This document shows, one piece after another, positions 6,555 to 21,964 of a stretch of DNA of 21,964 nt (position 1 is its first letter; each line of letters begins with the position of its first letter). The notes below the pieces were generated by a model. That model was not told the DNA's origin and did no database searches. It worked only from the letters and a program-made list of their open reading frames with translations. Both the position numbers and the translations under genes were made by a program. Location: positions 1 through 21,964 of the IMG/VR virus record IMGVR_UViG_3300029787_000380; one strand, given 5' to 3'. The DNA is from a virus.

Positions 6555-6743
6555 ATGACAACGGAACAATTACGAGCGTTCATCGTAGCGAACGAAGGTG
6601 ACGCGCTGGACGTTATGAAACGTAAAATGTACGACGCTGCATTAATAGAGTGTTACGGTAACGTATCGAAAGCGGCTAGAATGTTAGGTATTAGTCGTAG
6701 TAAACTAAGTAATTACGCTAACCAATGGGAACCAAAGCGATGA
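6555..6743 (+). CDS. Fis-like helix-turn-helix DNA-binding protein
   Basis: This 62-residue protein starts at an ATG with GGAG 8 nt upstream. Residues 27-57 (DAALIECYGNVSKAARMLGI and SRSKLSNYANQW) form a Fis-family HTH: a helix, the KAARMLGIS turn and a recognition helix. The N-terminal half is a short helical segment. It is much shorter than sigma-54 activators and resembles small phage regulators. It is the first gene behind promoter P1, whose operator is shared with other islands, so it is a candidate binder of that operator. That link is inference. The next gene starts within its stop codon (ATGA). Confidence 0.75.
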   Translation: MTTEQLRAFIVANEGDALDVMKRKMYDAALIECYGNVSKAARMLGISRSKLSNYANQWEPKR

Positions 6744-7042
6744 GTAGATACAATCTAGATGGTGATTCGGCGGCGATACATCGTAAAGTAACTGTCAATA
6801 AAATGACGAAAGAAGAGTGTCAAAAACTCGACATACCCGTTTATTTCCACGTGTGTAAACATGGTCATAAGTTACGTTACGTGTCGAATGATAAGTGTGT
6901 CGATTGTTCAGTGGCGAGAAGTCGCGAACATAAAGCAAACGCGAAACGTGTCGCGATTAAAAAGCGTCTCGACGAACTCGAAGCACGTCGAGAGCTTGAA
7001 GCGCTATACAGCGCGAGCACCCATGCCCGCACGGCGTCTTAA
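6740..7042 (+). CDS. small zinc-ribbon protein
   Basis: This 100-residue protein starts at the ATG at 6740 that overlaps the previous stop; a weaker in-frame ATG at 6725 lies inside the upstream gene. Residues 36-55 hold CKHGHKLRYVSNDKCVDC, a C-x2-G-H...C-x2-C metal-binding module. The rest is a highly basic coiled-coil-like tail (REHKANAKR, KKRLDELEARRELE). Such proteins are common phage early genes, and the module is nearly identical to the N-terminal zinc ribbon of HNH endonucleases, including the one at 13206-13889. The nuclease domain is absent here. The 3' end overlaps the convergent DUF4054 gene by 39 bp. Confidence 0.7.
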   Translation: MSRYNLDGDSAAIHRKVTVNKMTKEECQKLDIPVYFHVCKHGHKLRYVSNDKCVDCSVARSREHKANAKRVAIKKRLDELEARRELEALYSASTHARTAS

Positions 7043-13182: not shown

Positions 13183-13207
13183 GGGCGCAATAAGCGCCCT
13201 TTTTTTT
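13183..13207 (+). terminator. rho-independent terminator of the P2 island
   Basis: GGGCGC-AATAA-GCGCCC is followed by eight T. The T-tract overlaps the stop codon of the convergent HNH gene. Confidence 0.9.
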
Positions 13208-13889
13208 ATATCAGTTTATCGGACTTAGCTAAATTATCTTTAGCCCACAGTGGTTGTAAGTTTAATAAATCGTTGACCATCGTAGGGTCTGTAACACCGT
13301 TCTTTAACCACCATGATACAGGTACAATGTGATCGATATGCCATTCACCGTGGTTTTCCCACGTCATACCGTCAAGAAATAAAGACTCTAAATACTCTTT
13401 TAATTCTTTTGACGTGTAGCCTACAATATCAGAAGTATTGTTCACCTTCTTTCCACCTGTACTTTTCATTATCCTATAGATCATACTTCTACTATGGTTA
13501 GAAATTTTCCTGATTGGATCGTTTTTGTTCTTTTCATTAACGTAACCTCTAATATATTCACGGTTGTTTTTCGTCCATTCTCTTTGGTATTCTTTTATTT
13601 TTTGAGCGTTCTCAACCTGATATTCTCTTTTAAGTTTAGCTATTCGATTTTTGTTTTTATCGTAATACTCTTGAATTTTATCCTTATTGTTTTCACGGTA
13701 TTTTTTAGCCCTAGCTTTAACCTTTTCTTGATTCTTAGACGCGTATGTTTTATATCGTTTACGTCTGCACGACATACAATCACTATTACTGACTCTACGC
13801 TCATCAACATGACCGTACTTGCAAGGTTCACCAGTGTAATAACGGGTAAGGTTTTTCGCTTTTGCTTCTTTTCTAGATATGATATTCAT
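13206..13889 (-). CDS. HNH homing endonuclease with N-terminal zinc ribbon
   Basis: This protein of about 227 residues starts at the ATG at 13889 (GGTGG upstream; a GTG four codons earlier is possible). Residues 24-46 hold a zinc ribbon, CKYGHVDERRVSNSDCMSC. A long Lys/Glu/Asn-rich helical linker follows (about 50-135). The C-terminal HNH domain has EWHIDHIVPVSWWLKNG, then the LLNLQPLWAKDNLAKSDK segment, with the HID/H...N...K residues intact. Free-standing HNH enzymes of this kind promote their own spread between phages. The gene is AT-richer and Lys/Asn-richer than its neighbours and has no visible TATACT element, which suggests insertion between the minor head and protease genes and expression by readthrough. 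Confidence 0.85.
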   Translation of the reverse strand: MNIISRKEAKAKNLTRYYTGEPCKYGHVDERRVSNSDCMSCRRKRYKTYASKNQEKVKARAKKYRENNKDKIQEYYDKNKNRIAKLKREYQVENAQKIKEYQREWTKNNREYIRGYVNEKNKNDPIRKISNHSRSMIYRIMKSTGGKKVNNTSDIVGYTSKELKEYLESLFLDGMTWENHGEWHIDHIVPVSWWLKNGVTDPTMVNDLLNLQPLWAKDNLAKSDKLI

Positions 13890-13987
13890 TTTAACCACCA
13901 CAGAGTAGTTGCACAGAAATGGAAGGTTTGTGGCGGTCGGTTCTGTGTTCCGATATTCCCCCGCTAAAGGTAGCCACGATGTGTATA

Positions 13988-17587: not shown

Positions 17588-17766
17588 CCGACAACCGAGA
17601 AGCGTACAAAAAGCGTGAACGTAAGTCACGCTTCGAACAACCTATACCGCGATTCGCATATGACACCATGGGTTACTATGAGCGTGTGGCGCGTGGTCTA
17701 TGCTTTCAACATGAATTGCGCGTAACGCGTGAAGTTAAACGACGTCGCGCGCTTAGGGCTATTTAA
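17578..17766 (+). CDS. small highly basic protein
   Basis: This 62-residue protein starts at the ATG at 17578, 10 bp inside the previous gene. It is very basic (KKRERKSRFEQPIPRF, then TREVKRRRALRAI) with a central aromatic segment, AYDTMGYYERVARGLCF. The charge suggests nucleic acid contact. Its end overlaps the TerL end by 8 bp on the opposite strand. Function unknown. Confidence 0.6.
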   Translation: MQITDNREAYKKRERKSRFEQPIPRFAYDTMGYYERVARGLCFQHELRVTREVKRRRALRAI

Positions 17767-20311
17767 CCCAGTCTTTCAACGATGGGCGCTTATGGTCGAG
17801 CATTTGGTCAATAGCGTCAATCATCGGGTCGATTTGGTCATCGTGGGTTTTGAAGTCACTTTGAAGCCCCTCACACTCCGCTAAGAAATCGTTAAGCCAC
17901 GGCGCATCCTTCGGTAATTTCACATAGCCTGATTCAATATAACCCTGCACGTCCATGAAGCGTGTCAACTTATCGGTGTTACGCTGTATCGCCATGACAG
18001 GTATTAACGGTTTTGTGGATTTACGTATCTGTTGTATCAAACCTGTACCGCTCGCTTTGTCCTCGACCATTAACTTACGACACGACAAACCGTGAATGTG
18101 TTTAGCTTTTTGCCAGAACGCGACACATCGTTTCTTCAGCTCGTCGCTTTCCCACTTACCGCGTATCATATCGATGAGATACAAGTACCCGTCATTACCG
18201 AGACCCCAATGTTCGAACACTGAGAAATCGTTTCGTTCTTTCGTCTTCTGGGCCGTATCGCCGATGATGTACGAGAATTTCATCTTAGGGAGTATATCGT
18301 ACTCACCAAACCATTCAGACTTGATGAGTGAACCACCTTTGGCGGTGGGTCGTTGCTGATACAACGCGTTCCATGTGAGCGAGCCTGACGCCTTACACTG
18401 GTCTACGAAACCTTGCGGCATACGCTCAGGGAATAGTATTTCCCCAGGTTGACGTAACGTGTACGTATCCCCGTTGAGCTCGTGGCGCTCTGGTTCGTCG
18501 CTGTCCCACTCCATGGGGAACGAAACGACACGGAGCTCTTCTCCGCCCTCACGCGCTCGTTCAAGTAACTGACCGGCTAAGTCGTTCTTGTGCCAACGCG
18601 TTAAAATGATGATTATCCCGTTGACCTTCGGGTCGCGTCGAGTGTAGAACGTCGTTTCGTACCAATCGATAACAGTCTCTTGGTACGCAGGACTCGACGC
18701 TTCTTTGTAATCTTTTGCGGGGTCGTCAATGATACCGATGTTCATACCTTGACCGGTGATACCACCACCCACGCCAGCCGCACGATACGTACCACCAGCA
18801 AGCGAGCCGTCTGCTTTAATCGTTTCCCATTCGTCTACCGATGTACGGGCATCAGATTTAAGAGTGCCCATTTGAGCGTCGGGGAATACGTCCACATGGT
18901 GCTCTGATTTCACAATGCGTTGTGTATCACGTGACATTTTGAACGCGAGCGGTGAGGCGTACGACGCGGCGATGATGTTCCAGTTAGGATATTTACCGAG
19001 CGTGTAAGCTGGTAGACGTCGTGAAGCTAGCTCACTATTATGCGTTACAACGTGACGCGTACCAACAACGTAGAGCCCATCATCACTGTCAACCTGTATA
19101 CACTTACCTTTCACAGGTTCAACCATTTCAACGGATTTTATAGAAATTCTATTCTGTTTAGCAAACCTGGTCGGAACTTTTCGAGTTAGTCGACACGGCA
19201 CGTGCATTGTAGGTTGAAAACCAACAGTCCAATAAACCTTACGACCCTGTATACCTGATGTTGATAATCTTGGTTGGTGCTCTACGATGTACGGTCGCAT
19301 ACCCAACGACGCGATAAGTTTGTAGGCGCTGTCGATTAACGGACGTTCACAACTTGTAAATATCATTCGTGACTTGTCGTCGATGTGACCATCTGTATCG
19401 ATTAGACCGGCTAACAACTCTAAACGTTGCTCGACGCTACCTAGTAGATATTTATCAGGGATGTGTTTATCTGGTGCGTAACCTCTCGCTGTGTACACGC
19501 CTATGTCACTGAGCCCTCTCGCGAGCTTACCAGCGACACCGACCGTACCTGAGAAGTAAGTTGTTATCACACCCGTGTCAGGATGTACGCGCTGTGCAGT
19601 TATCGGATAACCCGCGTCGACGATAGCTTGTACAACTTCAGTCTCACACGCAGCGTGCGTTAAACATGGTTTAGAACGTGAACCATCACCAAGCCAAGCA
19701 CCTAACACATACGGATCGACTATAAAATCTTTACGTGTGTTTTCGAGACAACCAGCGTTTGGTAACTGGTAGTTATAATGACAACCTCTAACACCTTCAG
19801 TGCCTTGGTACATTGCGCGTTGTCGACCGAATTTATTCTTACCTAAAAACCATCGAGTCTCTTCGGTGCGAGTCTTCTTGCTGGTACGATCGTAAAAAGT
19901 CCATTCGTGGTTTAAATGACATGTTACTTGCTCGCCGTTAGTGAACGTTATTTTCACATTGGCTTTGTCTTCAGGTGATACACCCGTCACTCGTACCGGT
20001 GAACCATCAGGTTTATATACCTCGTCGCCTGGTTGTAACGAACCGTGCTGTACGTAACCGTTCGGAGTCGGTACAAGTGTTCCGTGCGCTAGTAGCTTAC
20101 CTGAGCGCGGTGGTGCGAATATCATAAGGCGTGGGGACTTACCGTCTGCAACGTCTAAAAGGAATTGGTCAAGTTCAGCACATAACAGTTCGTTGAACCA
20201 GCCCGTTTCATACGTTGGGTTTGTGTAGAGCGTGTAACCCATAAGAGATTCACGAGCCTGTTCGATTGCTTCGCGTTTAAGCGTTTCGTAAATCGCTGTG
20301 TTAGTTGTCAC
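17759..20311 (-). CDS. terminase large subunit precursor with intein
   Basis: This 850-residue precursor is predicted to splice to a 497-residue terminase, the motor and nuclease that packages DNA at the portal. Extein residues 1-72 end with Walker A FAPPRSGK; residue 426 Ser continues as SELASRR. Walker B is IGIIDDP (525-531), coupling motif LTRWH (570-574). The RNase H-like nuclease has acidic residues in IIGDTAQK (Asp685), MVEDK (Glu750/Asp751) and HDDQIDP (Asp824/825/828). The start is a GTG with GGGCGG upstream, 11 bp inside TerS. All catalytic residues are present, so activity should depend only on intein removal. Confidence 0.93.
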   Translation of the reverse strand: MTTNTAIYETLKREAIEQARESLMGYTLYTNPTYETGWFNELLCAELDQFLLDVADGKSPRLMIFAPPRSGKLLAHGTLVPTPNGYVQHGSLQPGDEVYKPDGSPVRVTGVSPEDKANVKITFTNGEQVTCHLNHEWTFYDRTSKKTRTEETRWFLGKNKFGRQRAMYQGTEGVRGCHYNYQLPNAGCLENTRKDFIVDPYVLGAWLGDGSRSKPCLTHAACETEVVQAIVDAGYPITAQRVHPDTGVITTYFSGTVGVAGKLARGLSDIGVYTARGYAPDKHIPDKYLLGSVEQRLELLAGLIDTDGHIDDKSRMIFTSCERPLIDSAYKLIASLGMRPYIVEHQPRLSTSGIQGRKVYWTVGFQPTMHVPCRLTRKVPTRFAKQNRISIKSVEMVEPVKGKCIQVDSDDGLYVVGTRHVVTHNSELASRRLPAYTLGKYPNWNIIAASYASPLAFKMSRDTQRIVKSEHHVDVFPDAQMGTLKSDARTSVDEWETIKADGSLAGGTYRAAGVGGGITGQGMNIGIIDDPAKDYKEASSPAYQETVIDWYETTFYTRRDPKVNGIIIILTRWHKNDLAGQLLERAREGGEELRVVSFPMEWDSDEPERHELNGDTYTLRQPGEILFPERMPQGFVDQCKASGSLTWNALYQQRPTAKGGSLIKSEWFGEYDILPKMKFSYIIGDTAQKTKERNDFSVFEHWGLGNDGYLYLIDMIRGKWESDELKKRCVAFWQKAKHIHGLSCRKLMVEDKASGTGLIQQIRKSTKPLIPVMAIQRNTDKLTRFMDVQGYIESGYVKLPKDAPWLNDFLAECEGLQSDFKTHDDQIDPMIDAIDQMLDHKRPSLKDWVK
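19037..20095 (-). mobile_element. class 3-type intein with LAGLIDADG endonuclease in TerL
   Basis: This 353-residue intein lies between Lys72 and Ser426 of the terminase precursor, inside the Walker A GK|S. Its first residue is Leu, not Cys/Ser/Ala, and block A reads LLAHGTLVPTPNGYV. The class 3 W-C-T set is present: Trp65 two residues after His63 in block B (HLNHEW), Cys332 in block F (CIQVDSDDG), and Thr351 before His352-Asn353 in block G (VVTHN). The next extein residue is Ser. The endonuclease motifs are LGAWLGDGS (Asp137) and LLAGLIDTDG (Asp235), both with acidic residues, plus DKHIPDKYL between. Splicing and homing activity are inferred. Confidence 0.9.
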
Positions 20312-20984
20312 GTTTACCGCCCAACTGGTTATGATAACGACCCAACCCTAACGCCTTCAATTTCGCTTCGAGTTCTTCGTCCGGTACGTCTTGAGTTTGT
20401 ATCGGTGCGCCGCCTGGTCCTGAGATTTCACTCTTCGTCGGTGCGTTGTATCCACACATGTCGGCGATTTGTTTACGAGCCGCTAACGAATCGTACAGCG
20501 TAATCTCTAAACCGTTTTTAGTTTGCTTAACGGACTTAATCGCACTGCGAGCGCCTTCGGGTATTTCGTCGATTGATTTCACATGTACCGAAGAGTTATA
20601 CACTTCAAGCCCCGATTCCATGTCAACGCTAGGACGCTCTGTAAAGCTCACCACGTCGTCGATGGTCGTTCGGGCTATGGTCGTAAGACCCATGAGGAGT
20701 TCGTCGCGTGAGAGTACCGCTGAGGCGATTTCAGGTGATGGTTCGACAGCCATTGTCGATAGGAAGTGCTTCACGAGAGGATTAGATAGGATCTGATTAC
20801 CCAAATCTTTACGGTGCGATTCGTTCTTACATTTCCCGCCGCCGATGCGATGCGCTTCGGCCGGTTCGTTTCCAGCAAGTGAAGCAAGCGCAACGCCACG
20901 TTGTAATTTCGTAAGCGCGTCGTAAGCGTTAAGTTGTTCATCGGTCAATTCAACCGACCGTCCTTCCAATTCCACAATCATCAT
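20301..20984 (-). CDS. terminase small subunit
   Basis: This protein of about 227 residues recognises the packaging site. It shows the Terminase_2 pattern: LNAYDALTKLQRGVALASLA (N-terminal helices), NEPAEAHRIGGG, LGNQILSNPLVKHFLS (oligomerisation helices), ELLMGLTTIARTTIDDVVSF, and a C-terminal basic GLGRYHNQLGGKR tail. Two adjacent ATGs (20984 and 20981) are possible; the ribosome site (GGGCTAG) is weak. It precedes TerL with an 11-bp overlap, as usual. Confidence 0.85.
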   Translation of the reverse strand: MMIVELEGRSVELTDEQLNAYDALTKLQRGVALASLAGNEPAEAHRIGGGKCKNESHRKDLGNQILSNPLVKHFLSTMAVEPSPEIASAVLSRDELLMGLTTIARTTIDDVVSFTERPSVDMESGLEVYNSSVHVKSIDEIPEGARSAIKSVKQTKNGLEITLYDSLAARKQIADMCGYNAPTKSEISGPGGAPIQTQDVPDEELEAKLKALGLGRYHNQLGGKRDN

Positions 20985-21010
20985 TCTAGCCCATTTCGTA
21001 ACATACGCTC

Positions 21011-21016
21011 AGTATA
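21011..21016 (-). promoter_or_regulatory. putative late promoter core TATACT before terminase genes
   Basis: The minus strand reads TGTGGATATACTGAG. It lies 27 nt from the TerS ATG. No -35 hexamer is visible. Confidence 0.45.
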
Positions 21017-21083
21017 TCCACAAACGCACAGTCTCGCAACAATCCGTACCACACCCCATACGTACACCCAACGAATCGAAACA

Positions 21084-21171
21084 GCGGGGTTATCCTAAGT
21101 CATTGATATTACTATATACTATACTCTATACCCCTTTACCCCTTTAAATATAAGAATAGAATAGAAGAGAA
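21084..21171. repeat. long noncoding repeat element, copy B
   Basis: GCGGGGTTATCCTAAGTCA through TACCCCTTTACCCC and AAATATAAGAATAGA matches 6256-6343 with substitutions. It lies in the same orientation relative to the flanking late and island genes. Confidence 0.8.
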
Positions 21172-21190
21172 AGAGAGAGTAGAGAAGAAG

Positions 21191-21210
21191 TGTACTGTAT
21201 AGTAAGTACA
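21191..21210. repeat. 6-bp inverted repeat TGTACT/AGTACA
   Basis: TGTACT is followed by 8 nt and AGTACA, within AT-rich DNA. It could be a protein-binding dyad. Confidence 0.4.
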
Positions 21211-21350
21211 ATAAGTATAATAATAATGAGTAATTAATATAAAGAAGTGCGAAACGTGAGGGTTAAATATCTCAAAACGCTGGAACCCGCGTCACCACTG
21301 GTCTGCAACCACACCTAACCCAAAACCCCATCCACCCCAACACTAGGGTA

Positions 21351-21380
21351 TTGACAATATCTACAGTCAAACATTATAAT
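21351..21380 (+). promoter_or_regulatory. consensus sigma-70-like promoter P5
   Basis: TTGACA, 18-bp spacer, TATAAT. The spacer includes ACAGTCAA, the same string as the outer half of the operators at P2 and P3, but the full 18-bp element is not present. Confidence 0.85.
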
Positions 21381-21420
21381 AATAACTCAACGTAACGACA
21401 ATTTATTATAAGGTTTAGAA

Positions 21421-21964
21421 ATGAGATACAACTACAAATTCCCTGACGGTTCTCCTTGTCCACATCCAACGAGCTACGAGCATGCGTGTGAAGTTAAATC
21501 GAGGCTCTACGACAACCGTGAAAAGTGTGAAAAATGTAATTCGCGTTACACTATTCGGTACACCAAGACGCAACAATGTGTTAGTTGCTCGCAATTAAAA
21601 GCTATTTCACTATGGCATTTATACAAAGGCTATACACAATATATATGGACCGATGAGGACGGAAAACACTGGGCGGAAGCTTCAGTTGGTCGCGTACTTG
21701 AGATACCAGACGAGCAAATGCAAGAGATGAAACGCCTCGTCGAAATTGCTAATTCCAGTGTTGATTACACGATAACTGATCAACCGTGTAGAACACATGG
21801 TCACTACGGTATGAAGCGCCTCGGTAAGTGTTACGAGTGCCAGCAGAAACGCACCAAACTAACACCACGACAAGAGGCGTTACATAACGGTGAAACGTGG
21901 TACACACCTGACACTGACTGCCCGCGATGCAACCAGCGAGCGTTACGTAACGTACACAATGGAT
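21421..21964 (+). CDS. multi-zinc-ribbon protein, 5' part
   Basis: The frame starts at an ATG with AAGG about 8 nt upstream and runs open to the right edge (181 codons). It holds repeated cysteine modules: CEKC...CVSC (residues 36-56), CRTHGHYGMKRLGKCYEC (about 126-143) and CPRC (about 172-175). These match the zinc ribbon in the 6740-7042 protein and in the HNH endonuclease. Between them is a W/Y-rich segment with WHLYKGYTQYIWTDEDGKHW. The end is unseen; an HNH or other effector domain might follow. It lies behind the strong promoter P5. Confidence 0.65.
   Translation, partial: MRYNYKFPDGSPCPHPTSYEHACEVKSRLYDNREKCEKCNSRYTIRYTKTQQCVSCSQLKAISLWHLYKGYTQYIWTDEDGKHWAEASVGRVLEIPDEQMQEMKRLVEIANSSVDYTITDQPCRTHGHYGMKRLGKCYECQQKRTKLTPRQEALHNGETWYTPDTDCPRCNQRALRNVHNG

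Follow-up and report, generated by a model that had tools for sequence, protein, structure and literature searches.

Class 3 inteins are defined in sequence by the lack of a nucleophile at position 1 together with Trp at block B position 12 (B:12), Cys at block F position 4 (F:4), and Thr at block G position 5 (G:5) (PMC5222942, PMC5050341), and they require Cys F:4, Trp B:12, and His B:10 (PMC5222942). Inteins of this class, and inteins in the Walker A motif of phage terminases, have already been described (PMC5050341). In that study, five mycobacteriophage terminase inteins were tested and all spliced readily, even in the oxidizing Origami strain, where the precursor rose slightly; two terminase inteins cleaved a partner phage's allele that had no intein. 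The intein described here lies in a virus record of 21,964 bases (the window, i.e., the whole stretch of DNA that was analyzed) and is a fairly ordinary addition to this set. It is very probably a full-length class 3 intein that includes a homing endonuclease of the LAGLIDADG family and rides as a mobile passenger in the Walker A motif of a large terminase (TerL) of the Terminase_6 type, with splicing restoring the terminase.

Results

Anatomy of the interrupted terminase

The extein protein is a Terminase_6-type large terminase with both its ATPase and its nuclease domain matched (Pfam Terminase_6N, PF03237, 2.4e-8; Terminase_6C, PF17289, 3.1e-11; TIGR01630, 2.7e-33; PHROG_38, terminase large subunit, 1.4e-101), and its two parts joined amount to 497 aa. 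The features of the locus are listed here.

20301-20984, minus strand: small terminase subunit, directly upstream of TerL and overlapping its start by 11 bases (Pfam Terminase_2, 1e-7)
17759-20311, minus strand: TerL open reading frame with the intein, 850 aa, GTG start
20096-20311, minus strand: N-extein, TerL residues 1-72, ending in APPRSGK (Walker A as far as Lys)
20096-20116, minus strand: N-terminal part of Walker A, APPRSGK, uninterrupted at this site in contigs L029, L030, L031, and L040
19037-20095, minus strand: class 3 intein, 353 aa, Leu1 to Asn353, TerL residues 73-425
19895-19936, minus strand: block B, GEQVTCHLNHEWTF, with Cys59, His60, His63, and Trp65 (Trp65 codon at 19901-19903)
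19154-19750, minus strand: LAGLIDADG endonuclease domain with approximate ends, roughly residues 116-314 of the intein
19685-19687, minus strand: Asp137, the acidic residue in LAGLIDADG motif 1 (block C, LGAWLGDG), invariant, with PI-SceI as Foldseek match
19391-19393, minus strand: Asp235, the acidic residue in LAGLIDADG motif 2 (block E, AGLIDTDG), invariant, Pfam LAGLIDADG_3
19085-19108, minus strand: block F, GKCIQVDS, in which Cys332 (codon at 19100-19102) is predicted to be the nucleophile that starts splicing
19037-19057, minus strand: block G, RHVVTHN, with Thr351, His352, and Asn353
19034-19036, minus strand: Ser+1, C-extein nucleophile and Walker A Ser once spliced
17759-19036, minus strand: C-extein, TerL residues 426-850, from SELASRR to the stop

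The 353 codons of the insert contain no stop, read from LLAHGT to RHVVTHN, and lie between the Lys and the Ser of Walker A, flanked by APPRSGK and SELASRR. Pfam LAGLIDADG_3 (PF14528, 4.7e-6) is matched by the insert alone, and D137, D233, D235, and Lys210 are invariant in an alignment of 72 relatives. Profile alignment of the same relatives showed Trp65, His63, and Thr351 to be invariant and Cys332 to be at least 90% conserved.

Portal, head, and capsid genes lie downstream of TerL. Between the small terminase gene and a divergent gene at 21421 is an A+T-rich intergenic stretch with purine and pyrimidine tracts (21010-21420). A free-standing HNH/endonuclease VII-like gene (13206-13901, minus strand; PHROG_1035, 1.7e-19), directly downstream of a Mu gpF-like head gene, is probably another homing endonuclease. 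The N-terminal half of its product is zinc-ribbon-like (CKYGH...CMSC) and shares PHROG_1081 with a 105-aa open reading frame on the plus strand (6725-7042), which is also zinc-ribbon-like (CKHGH...CVDC). A search of the window for RNA families and tRNAs found none.

Natural alleles without the intein

A contig search with the C-extein returned L029, L030, L031, and L040, in which the C-extein is 99% identical in protein to that of the window. All of them run from PPRSGK straight into SELASRR, with no insert and zero residues gained or lost, so that the ends of the intein are fixed to the residue and the insert is optional. The nearest named extein relative, Pantoea phage PA-1 (69% identity across the extein parts), is also without the insert. 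The intein-bearing relative L032, with an intein 95% identical to that of the window, comes from the same metagenome (3300019762) as the intein-less L031; intein-plus and intein-minus alleles therefore coexist.

Between the window and L032, dN/dS was 0.04 for the intein (0.028/0.70), 0.06 for its splicing parts (0.040/0.71), 0.03 for the endonuclease (0.019/0.69), and 0.06 for the C-extein, with dS of ~0.6-0.7. The 16 differences between the two inteins all lie away from catalytic residues, and both inteins have kept an open reading frame. The low dN/dS (~0.04) suggests that both the splicing and the endonuclease activities are maintained.

Nucleotide identity to L032 was 87.3% in the intein and 88% in the exteins, and the exteins of the window are closer to those of the intein-less alleles (92-93%), so the presence or absence of the intein does not simply follow the extein tree. 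In a check for co-conversion, the first ~50 nt downstream of the intein lean toward the intein-bearing relative, as do 7 of 410 windows to an equal degree, and no such signal was found upstream of the intein. Because the signal is weak and one-sided, we dropped co-conversion as proof of recent homing, for which the sequence evidence is weak. The intein-less L029, L031, and L040 are natural candidate targets of the endonuclease.

Class assignment and predicted fold

Position 1, as fixed by the empty-site alleles, is Leu and not Cys, Ser, or Thr. The +1 residue is the Walker A Ser, in line with the Ser or Thr of class 3, His63 occupies B:10, and Thr351 occupies G:5 before His352-Asn353, as in class 3 inteins. 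A profile of the 72 relatives matched the class 3 DnaB inteins 6rix (1.7e-29) and 6bs8 (4.9e-29), aligning NHEW with QHQW, GKCIQVDS with VRCVEVDN, and THN with THN, and pairing W65/C332/T351 with W67/C118/T137 of MsmDnaBi1. The single sequence gave E = 3e-7, which, together with the profile values of ~1e-29, excludes a chance match.

In a tree of 84 inteins with the Trp-Cys-Thr (WCT) triplet, including the DnaB type and built with no class 1 outgroup, the window intein belongs to a clade that comprises 62 rows (support 99) and, within it, to a sub-clade of 10 rows (support 98). Among 168 nonredundant related inteins collected, Trp is found in 167 and Thr in 166. The single one with Cys1, L008, has none of the three triplet residues and serves as an internal control; it is a class 1-type intein on a viral contig (L008:3001-4080), retrieved through similarity to the endonuclease part.

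The fold predicted by AlphaFold2 (pLDDT 96.2, pTM 0.92) is a Hint domain with a two-motif LAGLIDADG endonuclease. Its best Foldseek match was PI-SceI (1.6e-18); other intein endonucleases and I-DmoI were also matched, and the class 3 inteins MchDnaB-1 and MsmDnaB were matched at 3e-6 to 7e-6.

These results agree to the base with an earlier note on this DNA as regards the anatomy. It had given 19037-20095 as the coordinates, which the stop-free codons and, independently, the natural intein-less alleles confirm; it had put the insertion between the Lys and the Ser of GKS, a junction that is seamless in the empty alleles; and its complete LAGLIDADG endonuclease is present with both acids (D137 in LGAWLGDG, D233/D235 in AGLIDTDG). 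Trp65, Cys332, and Thr351 are where it had claimed them. The note had held that an alignment in which Trp65 and Cys332 missed blocks B and F would refute it; both fall on these blocks of 6rix and 6bs8, and its assignment to class 3 stands, given the triplet in blocks B, F, and G, Leu1, Ser+1, and the clustering with known class 3 inteins.

The CHxNHEW clade and relatives with Ser at F:4

The 62-row clade is large and mainly phage-borne and consists mostly of terminases interrupted between GK and S or T. Its block B is mostly CHxNHEW, with His at B:7 and an adjoining Cys, whereas most of the class 3 inteins collected have DxxHxW. The assigned hosts of its contigs are diverse (Gordonia, Bacteroides, and Porphyromonas phages; Streptomyces, Endozoicomonas, and archaeal MAG contigs).

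In the 63 nonredundant members of the group sharing His60, F:4 is Cys in 59 and Ser in 4. Ser replaces Cys in three groups (L066/L069/L203/L077/L078/L204; L053/L210, which are one contig retrieved twice; and L228), with block F reading GNSISVD, GHSISVE, ARSIEVD, or GNSITVE. The inteins with Ser at F:4 are at the following positions.

L066, 1157-2164
L069, 224-1231
L203, 2501-3490
L077, 2498-3502
L053, 2495-3529
L228, 1366-2367

All of the Ser F:4 inteins have Thr at +1, a residue found in 2 of the 59 inteins with Cys at F:4. The tree of 84 inteins separates the first two Ser F:4 groups, implying two changes; L228 is outside the tree and was judged a separate group on the grounds that F:4 is Cys in the inteins most like it (e.g., L238). 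The correlation between Ser F:4 and Thr+1 amounts to one or two independent pairs on the tree, which gives it no statistical power and makes it a pattern, not proof. Between L066 and L069, dN/dS was 0.15. Sequence comparison points to class 3 inteins that may be initiated by Ser, in two lineages at least and perhaps in three. In the AceL NrdHF intein, changing Cys to Ser at F:4 abolished splicing (PMC7891396).

The terminase encoded by the L066 open reading frame (1155 codons) is interrupted twice. Its Walker A holds the Ser F:4 intein, and another intein, further downstream in the ATPase domain, looks like class 1 (CLTGDTPIL...VVHN, followed by T).

Discussion

Proposed working of the intein

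The analysis itself shows the anatomy of the intein, its exact ends, the empty alleles, the signature of its class, the fold as predicted, and purifying selection. We infer active homing, and take the splicing chemistry and the order of its steps from characterized class 3 inteins (PMC6195587, PMC5222942, PMC7664689). By analogy with these, Cys332 would attack the Lys72-Leu1 peptide bond, with His63 and Thr351 assisting and Trp65 packing the site, and the N-extein acyl group would be handed to Ser+1. Asn353 would then cyclize with the help of His352, and an acyl shift would re-form the peptide bond, restoring GKS in Walker A and yielding the 497-aa terminase. B:7 is His (His60) here and Asp, Gly, or Ser in the published class 3 inteins consulted (PMC6195587 among the sources), so the details of N-junction activation may differ.

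Since the P-loop is split between Lys and Ser until splicing, the precursor should not use ATP, a point already made in the earlier note and in keeping with what we found; the same loss of ATP use with an intein in the RadA P-loop is cited in PMC6195587. The terminase would use ATP only after splicing, the insert acting as a mobile passenger and not as a regulator. In co-infection, the endonuclease would cut intein-less terminase alleles (e.g., L029) at the same site, and repair would copy the intein in.

Alternative explanations

The earlier note had gone further and suggested that splicing could act as a timing or redox switch. The same class 3 intein would then gate packaging conditionally, with oxidation tying Cys332 to, for example, Cys59 and leaving the terminase inactive. 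Its place at Walker A would suit such a role, H2O2 inhibits the M. smegmatis class 3 intein DnaBi1, likewise at a P-loop, by joining Cys48 to Cys118 in a disulfide (PMC6195587), and the precursor of the tested phage terminase inteins is slightly higher in oxidizing cells (PMC5050341). We rejected the DnaBi1 route because its second cysteine, at the Cys48 position, is Asn46 in the window intein. The sole reason that keeps the idea alive is Cys59, which stands directly beside the catalytic histidines of block B and is present in 46 of the 63 nonredundant His60-group members, but is replaced by Val, Ala, or Thr in the other 17; a redox effect through Cys59 may exist but is unsupported. Moreover, the near-identical phages without the intein, with 99% identity in the C-extein, indicate that this phage group needs no regulation by splicing, and the tested terminase inteins splice readily (PMC5050341). 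The switch was not borne out on these grounds, and we consider it very unlikely.

Splicing of the window intein is itself a prediction, and Arsp-FB24 Arth_1007, which falls in the class 3 clade but has no Cys in block F, is an inactive intein (PMC3196547). A splicing-dead or decaying intein, which would leave the terminase a pseudogene or dependent on complementation from a co-infecting phage, is nevertheless extremely improbable, because the catalytic residues are all intact, none of the 16 differences from L032 is catalytic, the frame is open in both, and dN/dS is ~0.04 in intein and exteins alike; it was on dN/dS that we rejected decay. A Cys at F:4 is present in some class 1 inteins (PMC3196547), which would allow a class 1 or class 2 intein to be misfiled through an incidental block F Cys. 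Here, Leu at position 1 rules out class 1 with its usual chemistry, the Cys is accompanied by both Trp B:12 and Thr G:5, the intein groups with those of DnaB and others that have the WCT triplet, and the lone Cys1 intein collected, L008, has no residue of the triplet. We therefore rejected both classes on position 1, the triplet, the block alignment, and the tree, and give misfiling next to no credence.

A possible shifted branch of class 3 and its significance

Taking the window intein as a mobile class 3 passenger, we tentatively raise a further reading, which we think rather unlikely: that it belongs to a mechanistically shifted class 3 branch adapted to terminase Walker A, marked by a block B His-x-x-His with an adjacent Cys and by an exchangeable initiating nucleophile (Ser F:4 with Thr+1 in at least three groups). 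If so, Ser F:4 with Thr+1 would amount to all-oxygen class 3 splicing, although the window intein itself keeps Cys.

The value of the window intein is modest: it is well delimited, and its intein-less alleles, with 99% C-extein identity, offer both homing targets and a spliced control. The wider set matters more, as a large CHxNHEW class 3 branch at terminase Walker A. The Ser F:4 inteins, seen in relatives only, are a more surprising lead than the window intein; if they splice, the class definition would widen from Cys to Cys or Ser, with cysteine-free splicing tools as a possible outcome.

Comparison with known systems

The closest named counterparts are the terminase Walker A inteins of Gordonia phage ViaConlectus, Bacteroides phage B124-14, and Porphyromonas phage 005b, which occupy the same site between Lys and Ser and resemble the window intein in length class, WCT triplet, and LAGLIDADG endonuclease, at 34-38% whole-intein identity. 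The Gordonia members have VHPRHEW in block B in place of CHxNHEW, and the Bacteroides and Porphyromonas members are without the block D insert found at window residues 205-209.

The mycobacteriophage inteins TerL1-a to TerL1-e (PMC5050341) also lie in large terminases, TerL1-a between the Walker A Lys and Thr, and the class 3 group among them takes in TerL1-c, -d, and -e; five terminase inteins of that set spliced and two were endonuclease-active. They differ from the window intein in having mostly DxxHxW or a similar block B, in that many retain the RPCY cysteine, and in extein type (Terminase_1, against Terminase_6 in the window). The Mycobacterium DnaB-b mini-inteins MsmDnaBi1 (6bs8) and MchDnaB1 (6rix) share the splicing fold, Trp-Cys-Thr, His B:10, and a P-loop site between Lys and Ser, but have no endonuclease and carry Asp at B:7, where the window has His; their redox partner Cys48 is absent in the window. 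PI-SceI, the yeast VMA intein, has the Hint plus LAGLIDADG architecture in common with the window intein and is unlike it in being a class 1 intein with Cys1, hosted by a V-ATPase.
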